From Nioella halotolerans (GTDB lineage Bacteria; Pseudomonadota; Alphaproteobacteria; Rhodobacterales; Rhodobacteraceae), in NCBI GenBank assembly GCA_003428585.1, contig QVQC01000032.1, forward strand, positions 102,583 to 166,582: a DNA stretch of 64,000 nt, read 5' to 3'. This document shows positions 5,952-22,580 of this stretch, in pieces. The translations under genes were made by a program, and so were the position numbers. How positions within the stretch are numbered: position 1 is the first letter of the stretch; each line of letters begins with the position of its first letter. Below the pieces are notes generated by a model. That model made no database searches and was not told the DNA's origin. It saw nothing but the letters and a program-made list of their open reading frames with translations.

Positions 5952-7115
5952 ATGTTCATGGCCAGCATGACATTCGATCTGGGCGAAGACGTGAATGCCC
6001 TGCGCGACATGGTGCACCGCTGGGCGCAGGAGCGGATCCGCCCGATGGCGCAGGAGATCGACAAGCAGAACCTGTTCCCGGCGGAGTTGTGGCGCGAGAT
6101 GGGTGACCTTGGTCTTCTGGGCATCACCGTGTCCGAAGAACATGGCGGTGCCGGCATGTCCTACCTCGCCCATGTCATCGCGGTGGAGGAGATCGCCCGC
6201 GCCTCGGCCTCTGTCTCGCTGTCCTACGGGGCGCATTCCAACCTGTGCGTGAACCAGATCAAGCTGAACGGCACCGACGAACAGCGCGCGAAATACCTGC
6301 CCGGGCTGGTCTCGGGCGAAAATGTCGGCGCGCTGGCCATGTCCGAGGCGGGGGCCGGGTCCGACGTCGTCTCCATGAAATTGCGCGCGGAAAAGCGCAA
6401 TGACCGCTACGTTCTGAACGGCACGAAATACTGGATCACCAATGGCTGCGACGCCGATACGCTGGTGGTCTACGCCAAGACCGACCCCGAGGCGGGGGCC
6501 AAGGGCATCACCGCCTTCCTGATCGAGAAGGACATGGTGGGCTTCAGCACATCGGAACATTTCGACAAGCTGGGCATGCGCGGGTCGAACACCGCCGAAC
6601 TGATCTTCGAGGAGTGCGAAGTGCCGTTCGAGAACGTTCTGGGCGAGGAAGGCAAGGGCGTGCGCGTGTTGATGTCGGGGCTGGATTACGAACGCGTGGT
6701 GCTGGCCGGCATCGGCACCGGCATCATGGCCGCCTGCCTTGACGAGATCATGCCCTACATGCGCGACCGCAAGCAATTCGGCGAGAGCATCGGGAACTTC
6801 CAGCTGATGCAGGGCAAGATCGCCGACATGTACACGGCGATGAACTCCGCGCGCGCCTATGTCTACGAGGTCGCCAAGGCCTGCGACCGGGGCGATGTCA
6901 CCCGTCAGGACGCGGCGGCCTGCTGCCTCTATGCCTCCGAGGAGGCGATGAAGCAGGCGCATCAGGCGGTGCAGGCCATGGGCGGGGCCGGGTTCTTGTC
7001 CGACAGCCCGGTTTCCCGCATCTTCCGCGATGCCAAGCTGATGGAGATCGGCGCCGGCACGTCGGAAATCCGGCGCATGCTGGTCGGGCGCGAATTGATG
7101 AAGGCGATAGGGTAA
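5952..7115 (+). CDS. ivd: Isovaleryl-CoA dehydrogenase
   Basis: A flavin-dependent acyl-CoA dehydrogenase (387 residues) that oxidises isovaleryl-CoA to 3-methylcrotonyl-CoA in leucine breakdown, passing electrons to ETF. Family signatures are [20 protein letters not shown] (about 127-146) and the C-terminal [20 protein letters not shown]. The residue that separates isovaleryl-CoA dehydrogenases from most paralogues is a glutamate on the G helix; here Glu247 in [10 protein letters not shown] fits. AGGAGG lies just upstream of the ATG. It is first in an operon with the MCC subunits, HMG-CoA lyase and a hydratase, which supports the substrate call. Confidence 0.93.
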
Positions 7116-7128
7116 CCACGGGGGCTGG

Positions 7129-7524
7129 ATGGACTGGAGCGTTCTGAGCGGGACCGAGGGCGTGTTGCACGATAACCTCGGCGGTCTGGCCGCGGTGCTG
7201 TCCTGGGTCGTCGCCGGGGTGGAACTTCTGGCCATTGCGGTGATGCTGATCGGCACCGCGCGCTTCCTGGTCGGCTTCGTCTCGGCCGAGGTGCAGCGCG
7301 CCGAGTCCGCCCGCGCCCATGTCATCAACCGCGAGCGGGTGGAGCTTGGGCGCTATATCCTTTCCGGTCTGGAACTCCTGATCGTTTCGGACATCATCCA
7401 CACCGCGCTCAGCCTTGCCCTGGCCGACCTCGTCTACCTTGCGCTCCTTGTGGCGATACGATCGGCCATCAGCTACTTTCTCGATCGTGAAATCCGCGAG
7501 ATCAAGGAGGATCCCGACCGATGA
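7129..7524 (+). CDS. DUF1622 small membrane protein
   Basis: A 131-residue protein with three likely membrane helices (about 20-45, 78-95 and 97-115) and the DUF1622-type segment RERVELGRYILSGLELLIVSDI. The function of this family is unknown. It sits 13 bases after ivd, and its stop overlaps the next start (ATGA), so it is part of the leucine operon by position. A metabolic link to isovalerate oxidation is not evident from the sequence; it may simply be carried in the operon. Confidence 0.75.
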   Translation: MDWSVLSGTEGVLHDNLGGLAAVLSWVVAGVELLAIAVMLIGTARFLVGFVSAEVQRAESARAHVINRERVELGRYILSGLELLIVSDIIHTALSLALADLVYLALLVAIRSAISYFLDREIREIKEDPDR

Positions 7525-7616
7525 TGGACGACCAGACAGGGCCAGCCCGCAACGACCGGCGGGCCTTCGCCGCGGGCTGCCGCTTCGACTATGAAAACCC
7601 GGAGTATCGCGCATGA
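7521..7616 (+). CDS. 31-residue ORF translationally coupled on both sides
   Basis: This ORF is too short for most gene finders. Its ATG overlaps the stop of the DUF1622 gene (ATGA) and its own stop overlaps the next ATG (ATGA). The product begins MMDDQTGPARNDRRAF and ends FDYENPEYRA: hydrophilic, with one cysteine and no signal or membrane segment. The double four-base overlap is the arrangement of a genuine coupled gene, and it fills exactly the space between its neighbours. It could instead be a coupling leader for the next gene. I know no family for it. Confidence 0.5.
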   Translation: MMDDQTGPARNDRRAFAAGCRFDYENPEYRA

Positions 7617-8107
7617 AACATGCAGGCTTTCTGGCAGCCCTTTGCCTTGCCGTAGCCGGCCACGCCGGCGCGCAGGATCTGGTCTTCGACCCGTCGCACA
7701 CGCTGACCTGCATCGCGGCGACGCCGGATCATCACGCGGCGGAGGCCTGTTTCGGCACCTCGGCGGAACGCTGCATGTCCGACACGCCGGGCGGGTACAG
7801 TACCGTGGCCATGGGCGGTTGCATGTCGGCGGAAGCCGAATTCTGGGATGACCGGCTCAACGCCGCCTACCGGCAACTGCGCGCGCAGGACCAGCGGCAG
7901 GATGCCGAGGCGCCGGATCATGCCCCCGCGCAAGCCGAGGCGCTGCGCGACATGCAGCGCGCCTGGATCGGGTTTCGCGACGCGACTTGCGCCTACGAGG
8001 CCAGCCAATGGGGCGGCGGCACCGGGCAGGGCCCGGCCTATGCAGGATGCGTCATGCGCATGACCGCGGCGCAGACGCTTTACTTGCAGCGCCAGCGGGG
8101 CATGTGA
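7613..8107 (+). CDS. LprI-like (DUF1311) secreted protein
   Basis: A 164-residue protein with a Sec signal peptide (MKHAGFLAALCLAVAGHAGA, cleavage near residue 20) and a C-terminal DUF1311/LprI-type domain: FWDDRLNAAYRQLRAQ, then LRDMQRAWIGFRDATCAYE. Six cysteines suggest periplasmic disulfides. LprI of Mycobacterium inhibits lysozyme, but most proteins with this domain are uncharacterised. It is coupled to the preceding short ORF and followed 33 bases later by mccB, so it lies inside a cytoplasmic catabolic operon, an odd place for a periplasmic protein. Confidence 0.75.
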   Translation: MKHAGFLAALCLAVAGHAGAQDLVFDPSHTLTCIAATPDHHAAEACFGTSAERCMSDTPGGYSTVAMGGCMSAEAEFWDDRLNAAYRQLRAQDQRQDAEAPDHAPAQAEALRDMQRAWIGFRDATCAYEASQWGGGTGQGPAYAGCVMRMTAAQTLYLQRQRGM

Positions 8108-8140
8108 CCCCACCGCAGCCACTTGCAACCGGAGATCGCC

Positions 8141-9745
8141 ATGAAACTTGTATCCAGGATCATCACCGGCTCGGCGGACTTCGCCACCAACCGCGCCACG
8201 CATCTCGACGCCTTGGCCGAGGTGCGCGCGGCGGCCGAGGCGGCGGAACAGGGCGGCGGCGACAAGGCCCGCACCCGGCACCTGTCGCGCGGCAAGATGC
8301 TGCCGCGTGATCGGGTGGCGAACCTGCTCGACCCCGGCTCTCCGTTTCTGGAGGTGGGCGCGACGGCCGGGCACGGCATGTATGACGGGGCCGCGCCCGG
8401 CGGCGGCGCGATCGCGGGCATCGGCCGGGTGCATGGGCAGGAGGTTATGGTGGTCTGCAACGACGCCACCGTGAAGGGCGGAACCTATTTCCCGATCACC
8501 GTCAAGAAGCACCTGCGCGCGCAGGAGATCGCGGAGCAGAACAACCTTCCTTGCATCTACCTCGTGGATTCGGGCGGCGCCAACCTGCCGCAGCAGGACG
8601 AGGTCTTTCCCGACCGCGACCATTTCGGGCGCATCTTCTACAATCAGGCCAACATGTCGGCCAAGGGCATTCCGCAGATCGCGGTGGTCATGGGGTCTTG
8701 CACGGCGGGCGGGGCCTACGTGCCGGCGATGTCGGACGTCACCATCATCGTGAAGCAACAGGGGACGATCTTCCTGGCCGGCCCGCCGCTGGTCAAGGCC
8801 GCGATCGGCGAGGTGGTGACGGCCGAGGATCTGGGCGGCGGCGACGTGCATACGCGCCTGTCGGGCGTGGCCGATTACCTGGCCGAGGATGATGACCACG
8901 CGCTCGCCCTCGCGCGGCAAGCGGTGGCGGGGTTCAACCGCACCCGGCCCGCAACGGTGGATTGGCAAAGCCCCGAGGATCCGGCCTACGACCCCGAGGA
9001 GATCCTCGGCGTCGTGCCGGCCAGCCTGACCACGCCCTACGATATCCGCGAGGTCATCGCGCGGGTGGTGGATGGCAGCCGCTTCGACGAATTCAAGGCG
9101 CGGTTCGGCGAGACCATCGTGACCGGCTTTGCGCATGTCATGGGTTGCCCGGTAGGGATCGTGGCCAATAACGGGGTGCTCTACAGCGAAAGTGCCGCGA
9201 AAGCCGCGCATTTCATCGAGCTGTGCAGCCAGAGGAATATTCCGCTGGTCTTCCTGCAGAACATCACCGGCTTCATGGTCGGCCGGAAATACGAGGCCGA
9301 GGGGATCGCGCGGCACGGCGCCAAGATGGTGACGGCGGTGGCCACCACGAAGGTGCCCAAGATCACCATGCTGGTCGGCGGCTCTTTCGGCGCCGGGAAC
9401 TACGGCATGGCGGGGCGCGCCTATAGCCCGCGCTTCCTGTGGACCTGGCCCAGTTCGCGGATTTCCGTGATGGGCGGCGCGCAGGCGGCGGGCGTGCTGG
9501 CGACCGTCAAACGCGACGCGATCGAGCGGGCGGGCGGCAGCTGGTCGGCGGAGGAAGAGGCGGAATTCAAGCGCCCGACGCTGGACATGTTCGAGCACCA
9601 GTCGCACCCGCTCTATGCCTCGGCGCGGCTTTGGGATGACGGGGTGATCGACCCGCGCAAGACGCGGCAGACGCTGTTCCTGTCGCTGTCGGCGGCGCTC
9701 AATGCCCCGATCGAGGAGACGCGCTTCGGCGTGTTCCGGATGTGA
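8141..9745 (+). CDS. mccB: Methylcrotonyl-CoA carboxylase, carboxyltransferase (beta) subunit
   Basis: It transfers the carboxyl group from carboxybiotin to 3-methylcrotonyl-CoA, giving 3-methylglutaconyl-CoA. The 534-residue carboxyltransferase has two crotonase-like halves, with oxyanion segments [18 protein letters not shown] and [19 protein letters not shown], as in MCC beta subunits. The start at 8141 is preferred because GGAG lies at 8131 and MKLVS begins the conserved region; a TTG at 8123 is possible. It works with mccA downstream, the two being separated by an ASCH-domain gene. Confidence 0.94.
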
Positions 9746-16325: not shown

Positions 16326-17195
16326 ATGGCACAGGCAACGCTTCTTTACGGGATCGGCGCGGCGAAGGCGGGGACCACCTGGCTTTACCGCTACCTTGCC
16401 CGGCACCCCGAGGTGCGGCTGCCCGCCGTGAAGGAGCTGCATTATTTCGACACCTGTGAAACGGGCAAGTTCGAGCGGCAGGTGCAACGCATGACCCGCG
16501 AACGCCGCCGCCGCAAGGCGCGCCTGCCCACGGGCGATGCGAGGTTGGACAAGCGGCTGCAACGCGAGGTCTGGGCCTATACCGGATGGCTGAACGTGAT
16601 CCGCGGAGGCCGCAACGATGCCGGCTATCTCGGGTTTCTCAACCATGACGCGGGCGCGGCGCGGCTGGTGGGCGATATCACCCCGGCCTATGCGACCCTG
16701 TCGGAGGGGTCGTTCCGGCACATGGCGGGGCTGGCGCCGGCGACGCGCTTCGTCTTCCTGATGCGCGACCCGCTGGACCGGTTGTGGTCCAACATCCGCA
16801 TGGCGGCAACGCGCAAGGGCGGGGATTTCGCCGCAGACGCGGGCGCGCTTCTGGACAAGGTGCTGGGCGGTGGCGACCGGACGATGGCGGACCGCTGCGA
16901 TTATGCCGGAACACTGCGGCGGTTGGGGGTCGCGGTCGACCCGGCCACGGTGTTCACCGGGTTCTACGAGACGCTGTTCCAGCCGGGAACGCTGTCGCGG
17001 CTTTGCGGGTTCCTCGGCATTTCCGAGCGGCCTGCCGACAGTGAGGCGCGGGTGCTGGTGGGCAACGACCTGACGATGACAGAGGCGCAGCGCGCCCGCG
17101 CGATGGCGTGGCTGGCCCCTCAATACGACGCGGTGGCGCGGGCAATGGGCCCGCTGCCTGCCCGCTGGACGGATAACATGGAGGCGCTGGCATGA
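16326..17195 (+). CDS. Sulfotransferase family protein inside the nuo operon
   Basis: A 289-residue protein with the PAPS-binding elements of sulfotransferases: the 5'-phosphosulfate loop [16 protein letters not shown] at the N terminus and the 3'-phosphate motif [15 protein letters not shown] near residues 142-156. Such enzymes move sulfate from PAPS to a hydroxyl or amino group of a small molecule or polysaccharide; the acceptor cannot be read from sequence. It begins eight bases after nuoC and its stop overlaps nuoD (ATGA), so it is co-transcribed with complex I. No sulfur-activation genes are nearby. A complex I role is not expected from the family. Confidence 0.82.
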
Positions 17196-18415: not shown

Positions 18416-18588
18416 TGCTGAGCAATATCGGACTGCCGGGACTGCTTCTGGTCGGACTGATGTCCGGGGGCGGTCCCGGCATGATCGGGGTGTCGACGGT
18501 GCAGGTCTTGCAACCTTTGCCGATGGCAGGGCCTGCGCCGTGGATGATGCCGCTCGTGTCCGGCGCGACGCACGGGGCCGATCAGTGA
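18415..18588 (+). CDS. 57-residue ORF with a TatA-like N terminus
   Basis: This short ORF is coupled to nuoD (TAATG) and to the next gene (GTGA). Its product begins [16 protein letters not shown], nearly the same as the start of the true TatA at 49523 ([12 protein letters not shown]); over the first 24 bases 22 are identical between the two genes. After residue 16 it diverges into a Gly/Pro/Met-rich tail ending GATHGADQ, with no TatA hinge or amphipathic helix. It may be a small single-pass membrane protein or a remnant of a tatA duplication. Translation is supported by coupling only. Confidence 0.5.
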
Positions 18589-18953
18589 GCCTCGCACTTC
18601 TCACGACGCTCTGCGGCGGGGTCACTGTGCTGATCCTCGGCGCGCTGTCGCTGGCCTTCTGGACCGATCCGGCCCGTGGCATGGCGCAGACCACGCATCG
18701 CCTCGAAACGCTGCCGCTTGTCATGGCCGACCGCTACGCCGCCTTCGCGGTGCTGGCGTTGGTCTTCACGATCTACGGCGATCTGAACGTCCTTATCGCC
18801 CTTTTCGCCGTCTGCGCCTTCATGGGCTTTGCCGACGGCGTGATCTATGCCCGCGCCGGGCATCCGCACATGAAACACACGATCTCGGGCGTGCTGTCCT
18901 CGGTGGCGCTTGCCATCGCCGCCGCCGCCCGTTTGACCCAAGGAGCCAGCTAA
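18585..18953 (+). CDS. Small integral membrane protein of the nuo operon
   Basis: A 122-residue protein starting at GTG, overlapping the preceding short ORF by four bases. Hydrophobic stretches suggest four membrane helices (about 3-26, 50-68, 70-90 and 100-116), with the short charged loop [12 protein letters not shown] before the last. I do not recognise the family. It shares a base with the nuoE start (TAATG), so it is tightly built into the operon, and a role near the complex I membrane arm is possible but unproven. Confidence 0.65.
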
Positions 18954-19987
18954 TGCTTCGCCGCCTGTCCCAAGACCAGCCCGACAGCTTTGCCTTTACC
19001 CCTGCCAACCTGGAATGGGCGCGGGCGCAGATCACCAAGTACCCGGAGGGGCGGCAGGCCTCGGCGATCATCCCGCTTCTGTGGCGCGCGCAGGAACAGG
19101 AAGGCTGGCTGACGCGGCCGGCAATCGAATACGTGGCCGAGATGCTGGGCATGGAATATATCCGCGCCTTGGAAGTGGCCACGTTCTACTTCATGTTCCA
19201 ATTGCAGCCGGTGGGCAGCATCGCGCATGTGCAGGTCTGCGGTACACTAAGCTGCATGATCTGCGGCGCCGAGGACCTGATCGCCGTCTGCCGCGACAAG
19301 ATCGCCGCCGAGCCGCACGCCCTGTCGCCAGATGGCAAGTTCTCGTGGGAAGAGGTCGAATGCCTCGGCGCCTGTTCCAACGCACCGATGGTGCAGATCG
19401 GCAAGGATTACTACGAGGATCTGACGACGGAGAAATTCGCGTGGCTGCTCGATGAACTGGCCGCCGGCCGGGTGCCGACGCCGGGGCCGCAGAACGGGCG
19501 CTACGTATCGGAACCCGAGGGCGGATTGACCTCGCTTGCGGAATACGAGGCAGGGCGTGATCCGCTGAACGCCTCTGCGCGGCTGGCCACCGATATCGGC
19601 GACACGGTGAAACGTATCGACGGCACGGAGGTGCCGCTGCTGACGCCATGGGGCAAGCAATCAGGTTGCGCGGAGGCGGCCGAGGCTGCCCCTGTCGCGG
19701 CCGAGAAGGCCGAGCACTGTGGCTCCCCCGCCGCCGAGGTTGCGGAAGCCGAGCCCGAGCGTCTGTCCGCCCCGCGCGCGGGGCGCGCCGCCGACGATCT
19801 CAAGAAGATCACCGGCGTCGGGCCGAAGCTGGAGGCGCTGCTGAACGAGATGGGCTTCTACCATTACGACCAGATCGCCGCATGGGGGCCCGCAGAAATC
19901 GCGTGGGTCGATGCGCGGCTGACGTTCAAGGGCCGGATCGAGCGCGATGACTGGGTGGCGCAGGCGACCGAGTTGGCCGGCAACTGA
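18953..19987 (+). CDS. nuoE: NADH-quinone oxidoreductase subunit E with C-terminal helix-hairpin-helix extension
   Basis: The 24-kDa complex I subunit, holding the [2Fe-2S] cluster N1a. The cluster ligands are CGTLSC and, further on, CLGAC (C-x4-C and C-x3-C). At 344 residues it is much longer than the roughly 170-240 usual for NuoE. After about residue 230 there is an Ala/Glu-rich linker, then from about residue 281 a helix-hairpin-helix domain ([19 protein letters not shown], then [10 protein letters not shown]). Two downstream genes carry the same domain. Long NuoE forms are known in Rhodobacter relatives. Confidence 0.93.
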
Positions 19988-20044
19988 CAGGCGGCCGGGC
20001 TGGTCCGGGCGCCGTATCCATAACGGCCAGTGCAGGAGGGCGCG

Positions 20045-20743
20045 ATGACGGATACCTACGGGCACATGTTTTCCGACCACTTGAACCAAGCCGAGAAGCG
20101 GCAGGCCAATGCCGATGTCATGGCCCAGATCCTGTGGCGGTATTACCAGCCGCGCTCGGTGATCGACCTTGGCTGCGGGCTGGGCTTTTTCCTGAAAGCC
20201 TGCGCCGCGCGGGGCGCGGAGATCACCGGCGTCGATGGCGACTGGGTCGATCCGGACGATAGCGTGATCCCGGGCCCGGCGCGGCGCAACGCCGATCTGA
20301 ACGCGCCCTATGAGGAGGCGCGTCGCTACGAGCTTGCCGCGACGATCGAGGTTGCCGAACACCTAAAGCCAGAACGCTCCGAGGGGTTCGTGGACGATCT
20401 TTGCGCGCTGTCCGATGTTGTCCTGTTCTCGGCCGGCATCCCCGACCAGGCGGGGGTGGACCACATCAACCTGCGCTTTCAGGGCGACTGGGCCGAAATG
20501 TTCGCCGCGCGCGGTTACGCCTGCTACGACCCGATCCGCAGGCGGCTGGCCGGCTTCGACCAGGCATTGCCATGGCTGGTGCAGAACGTGCTGCTCTACG
20601 TCAAGGAGGGAACCCCGGTCGACCCGCTGCTGGCGGAACACCGGATCGTTCCCAAGGCGGCGTCTTATGCAACGAAGTGGCACTACAGGCGGCAGGTGCG
20701 CAAGTTGCGCAAGCAAATAAGGAACATGAAGGCGCCGAAATAG
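20045..20743 (+). CDS. Class I SAM-dependent methyltransferase
   Basis: A 232-residue protein with the SAM-binding motif I VIDLGCGLGFFLKAC (about residues 45-60) followed by GVDGDWVD, and a post-motif acidic strand at IEVAEHLKPERS. The substrate is unknown. The last 30 residues are strongly basic (RRQVRKLRKQIRNMKAPK). GGAGG lies about eight bases before the ATG at 20045. It lies between nuoE and the helix-hairpin-helix genes; a target in complex I biogenesis would be a guess. Confidence 0.78.
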   Translation: MTDTYGHMFSDHLNQAEKRQANADVMAQILWRYYQPRSVIDLGCGLGFFLKACAARGAEITGVDGDWVDPDDSVIPGPARRNADLNAPYEEARRYELAATIEVAEHLKPERSEGFVDDLCALSDVVLFSAGIPDQAGVDHINLRFQGDWAEMFAARGYACYDPIRRRLAGFDQALPWLVQNVLLYVKEGTPVDPLLAEHRIVPKAASYATKWHYRRQVRKLRKQIRNMKAPK

Positions 20744-20822
20744 CCCGCCGGCGGAATTTTCCCTTCACAGTGCGGTGGCCGATAGTGTCTACTTTTCCTG
20801 AATGACGGGAAAGGGAAAGACC

Positions 20823-21545
20823 ATGTCGACGGACAATAACGGTTCGGACTGCTCCATGAAATGCCTTATCGCGGGGGTGCTGCTTGGCCTCGCGGTGCTT
20901 GTGGTCTCGTTGCTGGCAACGGGGATCGGGTTTCTCATGTCACTGGTTCTGGGGATCGTGGTGGCGATCCTGTTGACCATCGTGCTGCGCATGGTGCTGT
21001 GCGTGGACAGCGACGCGGTCGGAGCGACCCGCGTCAGCGACACGACCGCCAGCAGCAGCGCACCGGTTTCGCCCGCGCAATCGTCCGTGCCCGCCTCCGA
21101 GTCTGCGGCGCCGGCGCGCGAGCCGCAGGTGGACAGGGCGCCGGATCCCGACCCGGAACCAGAGCCGCAGGTGGACAGCACGCCGGAGCCGGAACGGGTG
21201 GCCGAGGCGCCGCCGCAAACGCCGGAGCCCGAGCAGCAAGCGGATGAAGCGGGGGAGGCCGTGCAGCCTGCCGCCTTGCAAGCGGCGCGCGACGGCGGGC
21301 CGGACGACCTCAAGAAGATCAAGGGCATCGGCCCGAAGCTGGAACAATTGCTGCACTCGCTCGGCATCTATCACTATGACCAGATCGCCGCCTGGGGATC
21401 GGCGGAAGTGGCGTGGATGGATGACAACCTGCAAGGTTTCCGAGGCCGTGTGACGCGCGACGATTGGGTGGCGCAGGCACGTCGATTGGCCGCAGGCGAC
21501 GAGACGGAATTCTCAAGAAAAGTTGACGATGGGGATGTATACTGA
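20823..21545 (+). CDS. Membrane-anchored protein with C-terminal helix-hairpin-helix domain
   Basis: A 240-residue protein (start at ATG 20823; an in-frame ATG at 20802 is possible). Two adjacent hydrophobic helices at about 13-55 anchor it. They are followed by a long Pro/Glu/Ala-rich linker (about 60-155) and then a domain from residue 161 ([37 protein letters not shown]). The domain is about two-thirds identical by eye to the extension of NuoE. The cytoplasmic tether plus domain suggests a scaffold or assembly role, which is inference. No enzyme motif is present. Confidence 0.7.
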   Translation: MSTDNNGSDCSMKCLIAGVLLGLAVLVVSLLATGIGFLMSLVLGIVVAILLTIVLRMVLCVDSDAVGATRVSDTTASSSAPVSPAQSSVPASESAAPAREPQVDRAPDPDPEPEPQVDSTPEPERVAEAPPQTPEPEQQADEAGEAVQPAALQAARDGGPDDLKKIKGIGPKLEQLLHSLGIYHYDQIAAWGSAEVAWMDDNLQGFRGRVTRDDWVAQARRLAAGDETEFSRKVDDGDVY

Positions 21546-21588
21546 TCACCGGGAGGTTGTGTAAAATCAACCGAGAAGGACGGACGAC

Positions 21589-22194
21589 ATGAAACTTGCT
21601 GACGATATCTGGTTGGGATCTGTCGCGGCGCGAAACAACATGATGGCCGCGGCGAACTATTCCGCGGCCTTCTACGGAAATGCCGCGGTGCAGAGCTGGG
21701 CGTTCGGCCTGCGCGCACCGCAGCGCTTCTGGACGGCCATGGTGCGCGCGATGGACGCGATGGACACCGCGCCCTGCAATGCGGAGGCGGCTCCGGCTTT
21801 GCACGCGACCGAGGTAGCCGAGAACGCGGCCGAGATGTCCGCCGCTGACGCGGATGCGCACCCTGTCGTGGTACCCCAAGTGACACAGGCAGCGGCGCCC
21901 GCCGAGCCGCCCGCTGCTGCCCTCGCCGACGTGGCCGAGGATCCTGCGGCGGCGCCCATGGCCTCGCCCCTTCTGCTCGATGCGCCCCGTGGCGACGCCC
22001 CGGATGATCTGACCGCTGTCAAGGGGATCGGCGCCAAGATGGCCGCCAGCCTCAACGAATTCGGGATCTACCATTACGACCAGATTGCCGCGTTGGACGC
22101 GGCGGGGATCGACTGGCTCGATGAACACCTGCCGGGATTCAAGCGCAATTGCGCCCGGTTCGATCTGGTTTCCGGGGCCGCACAATTGGTTTGA
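21589..22194 (+). CDS. Protein with a third copy of the helix-hairpin-helix domain
   Basis: A 201-residue protein. Residues 1-60 are amphipathic, with many Ala/Met/aromatic residues (SAAFYGNAAVQSWAFGLRAP), loosely phasin-like. Residues 65-135 are an Ala/Pro-rich linker. From residue 139 comes a diverged form of the domain seen in NuoE: LTAVKGIGAKMAASLNEFGI, then YHYDQIAAL. It differs more from the other two copies than they do from each other. It has no membrane helix. GAAGGA precedes the ATG. Confidence 0.68.
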   Translation: MKLADDIWLGSVAARNNMMAAANYSAAFYGNAAVQSWAFGLRAPQRFWTAMVRAMDAMDTAPCNAEAAPALHATEVAENAAEMSAADADAHPVVVPQVTQAAAPAEPPAAALADVAEDPAAAPMASPLLLDAPRGDAPDDLTAVKGIGAKMAASLNEFGIYHYDQIAALDAAGIDWLDEHLPGFKRNCARFDLVSGAAQLV

Positions 22195-22249: not shown

Positions 22250-22349
22250 CAATGCGCGCGGGGCGAATTCGCGGCCCCGATAGTGGACATTGCCAGCCGC
22301 CCTGCCATAAACGGGGCCAAACAAACCCGCGACCCGAGGCATGCTGCCC

Positions 22350-22580
22350 ATGGCTGACGCCCCCCGGAAAGCCCCCGTTCAGGCCCGCAAGGCCCGCATC
22401 GCCGCAAGCGTGATGGCCACGACGATGCTTTTGTGGATGGGGGCGCAGCTTCTGGGTGGACAGCTCGGCCTGCCGGTGCGCTACGTGTTTCTGTTCGACC
22501 TTGCGGCAATCGCGGCTCTGGTCTGGGCGCTGATCGTGACGTATCAGGTCTGGCAAGCCCGCCGCGCAGAAAGGGACTGA
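22350..22580 (+). CDS. DUF5337-like small membrane protein
   Basis: A 76-residue protein: a basic N terminus ([20 protein letters not shown]), two hydrophobic helices (about 20-38 and 43-66), and a basic tail RRAERD. It fits DUF5337, a Rhodobacteraceae-restricted family found in nuo operons. Start choice: ATG 22350 has a GAGG ten bases upstream, while the ATG at 22341 has it one base away. Two bases separate its stop from nuoF. Function unknown. Confidence 0.65.

Follow-up and report, generated by a model that had tools for sequence, protein, structure and literature searches.

Three genes of the nuo operon in a 64,000-nucleotide stretch of Nioella halotolerans DNA (contig QVQC01000032.1; the window) encode proteins that end in one homologous C-terminal domain of about 63 residues, starting with DDL. 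These genes, nuoE, a gene at position 20823 and a third gene at 21589, are all bracketed by nuoD and nuoF. By homology and predicted fold, their shared tail is best explained as a portable alphaproteobacterial helix-hairpin-helix (HhH) domain on a flexible linker, which stands C-terminal to unrelated proteins of large assemblies. Judged from its sequence relatives, the tail is not special to complex I. By analogy with the phasin PhaH, it is quite possible, although short of probable, that the tails encoded in the nuo operon serve as portable nucleoid tethers via non-specific DNA binding.

An earlier note, made from the letters of the window, had placed the start of the domain at residues 281 (NuoE), 161 (20823 protein) and 139 (21589 protein), and DDL was located at exactly these residues. 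Pairwise BLASTP gave E values of 6e-30 for NuoE against the 20823 protein, 1e-17 for NuoE against the third protein and 6e-20 for the 20823 protein against the third. Identity to the NuoE tail was 71% for the 20823 protein and 50% for the third protein, a likeness well past chance, which bears out the view that one domain is common to the three proteins and more diverged in the third. The hairpin G-[IV]-G-x-K-[LM] described by the note is present in all three (GVGPKL, GIGPKL and GIGAKM, respectively), as is YHYDQIAA (at residues 303, 183 and 161), and the long Ala/Pro/Glu-rich linkers that it had pointed out were recovered as well (Table 1). The N-terminal parts, which it had called different, are so for NuoE, with a thioredoxin-like 2Fe-2S domain (PF01257, 5.9e-52), and for the 20823 protein, with a two-helix membrane hairpin; the amphipathic region that it had assigned to the third protein is clear only near residues 40-57 (hydrophobic moment 0.62). 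The closest NuoE in the PDB, 8qby_E (239 residues), which we take to be NuoE of Paracoccus denitrificans complex I, matched residues 1-234 of the window NuoE only.

The fold of the tail was predicted by AlphaFold2 (AF2) from an alignment of 49 tail copies, namely the domain copies found by profile in the window and in loci L034-L072. The result showed a five-helix HhH-like fold with a mean predicted local distance difference test (pLDDT) score of 91.8, so that the HhH call of the earlier note agrees with the prediction. Both glycines of the G-h-G hairpin were invariant across the 49 copies, which stand on several carriers, and the positions of HYDQIAAW and GRxxRDxWxxQA were conserved among them. 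With the curated Pfam HhH families (HHH_5, HHH and IMS_HHH), the window tails all stayed under the gathering cut-offs; the best scores were 19.9 bits for IMS_HHH (cut-off 24.4) and 18.8 bits for HHH_5 (cut-off 27). The best Foldseek neighbours of the tail model were the RadA N-terminal region (prob 0.98) and the NusA C-terminal repeats (prob 0.94-0.96).

The NCBIfam models of long NuoE, ribosomal proteins L21 (PRK12278) and S2 (PRK12311) and the phasin PhaH (NF045508) all contain the tail. The PhaH model matched the window tails of NuoE (1.4e-22), the 20823 protein (5.6e-19) and the third protein (3.4e-9), and the window NuoE matched the L21 model at 8.8e-28 and the S2 model at 2.6e-18. The linkers are not the cause of the PhaH-model match, because the domain-only stretch of that model (166-232) still scored 3.3e-15 on another carrier. 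As a whole-protein test, the PhaH model matched only Caulobacter vibrioides among 14 control genomes, above its cut-off, and the best window protein reached 81 bits against a cut-off of 250. In the window genome (99.99% complete), four copies of the tail were detected, three in the nuo-operon genes and one on L21. In other genomes the tail is carried by NuoE, the hairpin protein, L21 and S2, and also by membrane anchors and phasin-like proteins. Many carriers have a middle part that looks coiled-coil-like by eye, and the tail is sometimes in tandem. The L21 and S2 carriers among the sampled loci are presumably correctly named, having been recognised via sequence motifs and backed by the NCBIfam models. 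One set of loci was picked, among the matches listed, by short peptide patterns (HYDQIAAW among them), and no frequencies are drawn from it. Counted as per-genome tallies, the tail was found in 84 of 299 genomes of a phylum sample, 82 of them in the window's class and two outside it (E 4.7e-7 and 7.5e-7), and in 16 of 143 genomes of a class sample, three of which, the window genome included, belong to the window's family. The idea of a shared and portable module on flexible linkers is supported. Specificity for complex I is not: the tail occurs on L21 in the same genome, on S2, on phasin-like proteins and on membrane anchors, and the 20823 protein is homologous to a subunit of a photosynthetic core.

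Two kinds of arrangement were also seen among these carriers. Loci L180 and L178 have two HhH domains in tandem behind hydrophobic N-terminal parts, and in L219 (genome G250), L222 (G260) and L237 (G245) the HhH tail follows an N-terminal part that looks phasin- or PhaE-like by eye.

The 20823 protein proved to be homologous from end to end to the 'Reaction center protein O chain' 8yy9_O (phmmer E 2.3e-44). Its homology to 9wqv_a (E 5.9e-39) covers the greater part of its length; the 9wqv entry is titled 'Cryo-EM structure of LH1-RC from Rhodovulum sulfidophilum', and chain 9wqv_a itself bears a complex I name. These two chains, both from reaction-centre entries by name or title, were the PDB matches under E 1e-10 for the 20823 and 21589 proteins. 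We equated 8yy9_O with the published protein-O by its name and its length of 239. In the published account (PMC12079452), only residues 8-59 of Dinoroseobacter shibae protein-O are seen, as a hairpin between the reaction centre and the light-harvesting 1 (LH1) ring; a Cys pair flanking both hairpin ends is placed on the cytoplasmic side, nuoE and nuoF are the neighbours of the gene, and the C-terminal domain is described as resembling that of NuoE and others, its role being called unknown by those authors. Since the likeness of the NuoE and protein-O C-termini is reported there, part of what the earlier note observed had already been published. In the full-length AF2 model of the window protein-O homologue, the mean pLDDT was 66.6 and the linker was poor. 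NuoE and DNA are also on the cytoplasmic side, and this topology is compatible with a DNA tether and with a protein partner alike. No PF00124 reaction-centre match was found in the window genome; therefore, the 20823 protein cannot act in the reaction centre-LH1 complex (RC-LH1) there.

The distribution of the tail and of the hairpin gene was determined in 100 genera of the family, with one genome each (the window genome and 99 others drawn evenly from a larger group). NuoE was found in all 100 genomes, up to 9.5 kb around nuoE was analysed, membrane helices were scored with a simple hydropathy window, and none of the resulting tables is corrected for phylogeny. A reaction centre was detected in 35 genera and none in 65. 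The NuoE tail was detected in 79 genera; the 'no tail' of one genome (G086), where the contig stops within nuoE, is uninformative, and some NuoEs counted as tail-less (e.g. L091, L116, L149 and L163) are nevertheless extended far beyond the usual C-terminus, with no domain detected there by the profile. An HhH-bearing hairpin gene stood beside nuoE in 62 genera and not in 38, comprising 26 of the 35 with a reaction centre and 36 of the 65 without (p 0.08). A hairpin profile added ten genomes (L077, L089, L098, L103, L104, L111, L121, L136, L165 and L171) whose hairpin proteins have no detectable HhH tail, implying that the tail is optional on this protein; two hairpin-like open reading frames (ORFs), in L122 and L157 (profile E 0.012 and 0.12), were left out of the hairpin count. 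Hairpins of any kind between nuoE and nuoF thus amounted to 72 of 100: 27 among the 35 genera in which a reaction centre was detected, and 45 among the other 65 (p 0.49). The flanking Cys pair was kept in 31 of 36 hairpins from genomes without a reaction centre and in 16 of 26 from genomes with one, and the conserved positions of the hairpin were identical in both groups. By its distribution, the 20823-type protein looks like a nuo-operon protein first and not a photosynthesis gene. The NuoE tail was present in 53 of the 62 genera with an HhH-bearing protein-O homologue, 9 of the 10 with a tail-less hairpin and 17 of the 28 in which no hairpin was found. The 21 genera with no detected NuoE tail and the 38 lacking the HhH-bearing hairpin gene weigh against a complex I-specific system.

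The tails of NuoE and protein-O homologues were compared in 53 genomes having both. The result showed 70.7% identity within genomes and 66.2% between them (0 of 20000 permutations), and the excess persisted when the 10 most similar pairs were left out (5 of 20000 permutations). The excess is modest: in 8 of 53 cases the genome's own partner came first, and its median rank was 10 among 53. The nearest relative of a tail was on the same carrier in 98 of 141 cases and on the other carrier in 43, of which seven were in the same genome, which speaks against free mixing. In a tree of tails by carrier, which is weak at about 63 columns, the NuoE and protein-O labels needed 34 changes on 141 rows, compared with a mean of 45.5 and a lowest value of 37 in 100 shuffles. 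In locus L159 (NuoE at 7797-8966 and protein-O at 6829-7629, minus strand), the two tails were 98.4% identical in DNA and all of 24 four-fold sites were equal, compared with 43% between the L159 NuoE tail and the protein-O tails of other genomes; such near-identity is what a recent gene conversion or a renewed duplication leaves behind. Such occasional interchange suggests that the NuoE and protein-O tails have the same job. For the tail of the third protein, by contrast, resemblance to the NuoE and protein-O tails of its own genome was not significant (2685 and 3288 of 20000 permutations). In another locus (L184, genome G114), the NuoE and protein-O tails are both L21-like, with TSFAQ and TTFAQ replacing YHYDQ, hinting at exchange with L21 too.

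The third gene was found as a non-membrane ORF in 9 of the 100 genera. Its type was examined in an alignment of ten proteins (eight of the nine counted, L141 being excluded for a doubtful start, together with L129 and L048). Outside the HhH part, the ten members gave only scattered weak Pfam matches, the best being Apolipoprotein at 0.0058 in one member only, and a phasin identity of the N-terminus was rejected. The one PF09361 match in the window genome is below the cut-off and lies elsewhere than the third gene. Its architecture is like that of PhaH, and the third protein might accordingly sit on granules.

PhaH is the sole carrier found with reported biochemistry. According to a review (PMC13052382, citing Salinas 2023), the N-terminus of Caulobacter PhaH binds polyhydroxybutyrate (PHB) granules, its HhH end binds DNA non-specifically, and PHB granules are disorganised without PhaH. 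Because this carrier is said to bind DNA and the tails are homologous, we infer a nucleoid tether; HhH domains being the nearest solved folds of the tail model was also counted for DNA binding. The tail would bind DNA non-specifically and thereby hold its carrier loosely at the nucleoid. Complex I would be held, and perhaps positioned, through NuoE, the membrane hairpin through the protein-O homologue and ribosomes through L21, and a granule or membrane surface might be held through the third protein.

Several observations weigh against this reading. In PMC12028471, which also reports that the archaeon Haloferax mediterranei has a polyhydroxyalkanoate (PHA) synthase with an HhH domain, the PhaH domain is only proposed to improve granule contact with the nucleoid, and our confidence in the tether was reduced because of this wording. 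Beyond the control set, the PhaH cut-off was passed by none of 143 and none of 41 sampled genomes. The best Foldseek neighbours of the tail model had E values of 0.15-0.2, none reaching 1e-3. The tails are mostly acidic, with a mean net charge of -3.0 in 105 NuoE copies and -2.3 in 63 protein-O copies (in the window, 0 for the protein-O homologue and -4 for each of the other two), and such a composition is unusual for DNA binding. The NuoE tail was absent or undetected in 21 of the 100 genera. Furthermore, NusA AR2, which the tail model resembles, is likewise acidic, and this HhH domain has a protein-binding role.

The main rival is a common protein partner. The tail would then be a protein-protein module, and a common hub or self-pairing would cluster complex I, the hairpin protein (with RC-LH1 in phototrophs), ribosomes and granules, a plausible arrangement that we nevertheless regard with some doubt. 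The acidity of the domain and the presence of NusA AR2 among the top Foldseek matches are in keeping with it, the conserved HYDQIAAW and GRxxRDxWxxQA could form a binding face, and NuoE and protein-O tails more alike within genomes would be expected if both fit one partner. However, no hub protein came to light, and for PhaH, the only carrier found with reported biochemistry, the stated ligand is DNA. Nor are the two tails obligate partners: 26 of 79 genera with a NuoE tail have no HhH-bearing protein-O homologue, and 9 of 62 genera with such a homologue have no tail on NuoE.

The earlier note had considered an undescribed assembly or tethering system for complex I. Of this, tethering stands as the best kind of explanation, and the hairpin does occur in most nuo operons regardless of a reaction centre; an undescribed assembly system for complex I is not supported. 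It is improbable that the NuoE tail, the hairpin protein and the third protein make up an assembly or tethering system dedicated to complex I, even though the stretch from nuoD to nuoF encloses the three genes, 45 of the 72 genera with a hairpin ORF have no reaction centre, and the NuoE tail goes with the hairpin to the extent given above. Carriers of the tail include L21, S2 and phasin-like proteins besides others, structures put the hairpin in RC-LH1 and the strong PDB matches all come from reaction-centre entries, and many relatives are without one or more of the parts, the third gene being found in about one genus in ten. A further idea, that the 20823 gene once served photosynthesis and has outlasted the loss of the reaction centre as a relict RC-LH1 subunit, fits its homology to protein-O and to the Rhodovulum chain, the missing PF00124 match and the somewhat commoner HhH-bearing gene in phototrophs, but is very improbable given that hairpin presence is unrelated to the reaction centre and that the Cys pair and the conserved positions are kept where decay would be expected.

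The nucleoid tether could be extended to a wider, and as a whole unlikely, picture: protein-O would be a complex I-operon hairpin captured by RC-LH1 in phototrophs, and its tail and that of NuoE would be one interchangeable, gene-converting, DNA-binding module tying both complexes to the same nucleoid-facing membrane. With L21, S2 and PhaH, it would represent one tag by which granules, ribosomes and the complexes of respiration and photosynthesis are anchored to DNA. If this were true, a single small tag would fasten some of the largest cellular assemblies to the nucleoid. A puzzling subunit of recent photosynthetic core structures gains a wider context in any case, namely the complex I operon and a family in which 65 of 100 genera show no reaction centre, and the obscure tail of NuoE, L21, S2 and protein-O is now linked to a domain for which DNA binding is reported. 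In the literature searched, which covered a minority of subscription papers and no bioRxiv preprints, no description turned up of what the tail does on NuoE or on L21, and a search for L21 together with HhH found no paper naming both.

Table 1. Positions in the window of the three genes with an HhH tail and of the parts of their products
Feature	Position	Strand	Evidence
nuoE with C-terminal extension, 344 residues	18953..19987	+	PF01257 5.9e-52; NCBIfam PRK12373 1.4e-169
NuoE Ala/Pro/Glu-rich linker, residues 235-280	19655..19792	+	61% Ala+Pro+Glu
NuoE HhH tail domain, residues 281-342	19793..19978	+	alignment; hmmsearch 7.3e-34
Protein-O homologue, 240 residues; alternative in-frame start 20802	20823..21545	+	phmmer against 8yy9_O E 2.3e-44, residues 1-240 on 1-239
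Protein-O homologue, membrane hairpin, residues 8-63, Cys10/Cys14/Cys60	20844..21011	+	AF2 helices 8-32 and 37-63; hydropathy
Protein-O homologue, Ala/Pro/Glu-rich linker, residues 64-160	21012..21302	+	49% Ala+Pro+Glu; mostly low pLDDT
Protein-O homologue, HhH tail domain, residues 161-223	21303..21491	+	AF2 pLDDT 91.8; BLASTP E 6e-30 to NuoE
Third HhH protein, 201 residues; phasin-like by architecture only	21589..22194	+	ORF, Pfam and architecture
Third protein, amphipathic stretch, residues 40-57	21706..21759	+	hydrophobic moment 0.62
Third protein, Ala/Pro/Glu-rich linker, residues 60-138	21766..22002	+	58% Ala+Pro+Glu
Third protein, diverged HhH tail, residues 139-200; without the GRxxRDxW part	22003..22188	+	BLASTP E 1e-17 and 6e-20; alignment

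Further ORFs lie in the gaps of the operon. A sulfotransferase-like ORF (16326-17195, same strand; PF13469, 2.6e-12) stands between nuoC and nuoD, a small ORF with a weak DUF4267 match under the cut-off (18498-18953; 0.0017) between nuoD and nuoE, and a methyltransferase-like ORF (20045-20743; PF13489, 4.6e-9) between nuoE and the gene of the protein-O homologue. Directly before nuoF is an ORF of 79 residues (22341-22580) with two hydrophobic stretches judged by eye, for which DUF5337 is presumably the family name; similar ORFs of about 74 residues occupy the same position in many relatives without protein-O.

Among known systems, protein-O of the D. shibae RC-LH1 (8yy9_O, with the same sequence in 8yz2, 9jpb and 9km0, and 'protein LRC' in 9lts and 9ltv) is a full-length homologue of the 20823 protein, and the two are alike in their N-terminal Cys-flanked hairpin, long linker, C-terminal domain and position between nuoE and nuoF. 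The hairpin of protein-U/Y in the Rhodobacter sphaeroides RC-LH1 is like that of protein-O in shape and position, according to PMC12079452. A sequence kinship of the two was rejected, as a profile of 62 hairpins found only protein-O entries and 9wqv_a in the PDB at E <0.04; the remaining matches (E 0.04 or worse), photosystem II PsbJ among them, seem to reflect single membrane helices. The full-length hairpin alignment comprised seven HhH-tailed hairpin proteins from the window and loci L034-L072. Long NuoE is already a recognised annotation (NF009040/PRK12373), whose cut-off the window NuoE passes with 565 against 514 bits and whose model description names no function for the extension. L21 (PRK12278) and S2 (PRK12311) share the tail of the window proteins, L21 in the window genome itself, and differ in the carrier. 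PhaH (NF045508) and the window proteins have in common the C-terminal HhH tail family and a flexible linker, whereas the third window protein, the one closest to PhaH in architecture, differs from it in an N-terminus that matches no phasin model.

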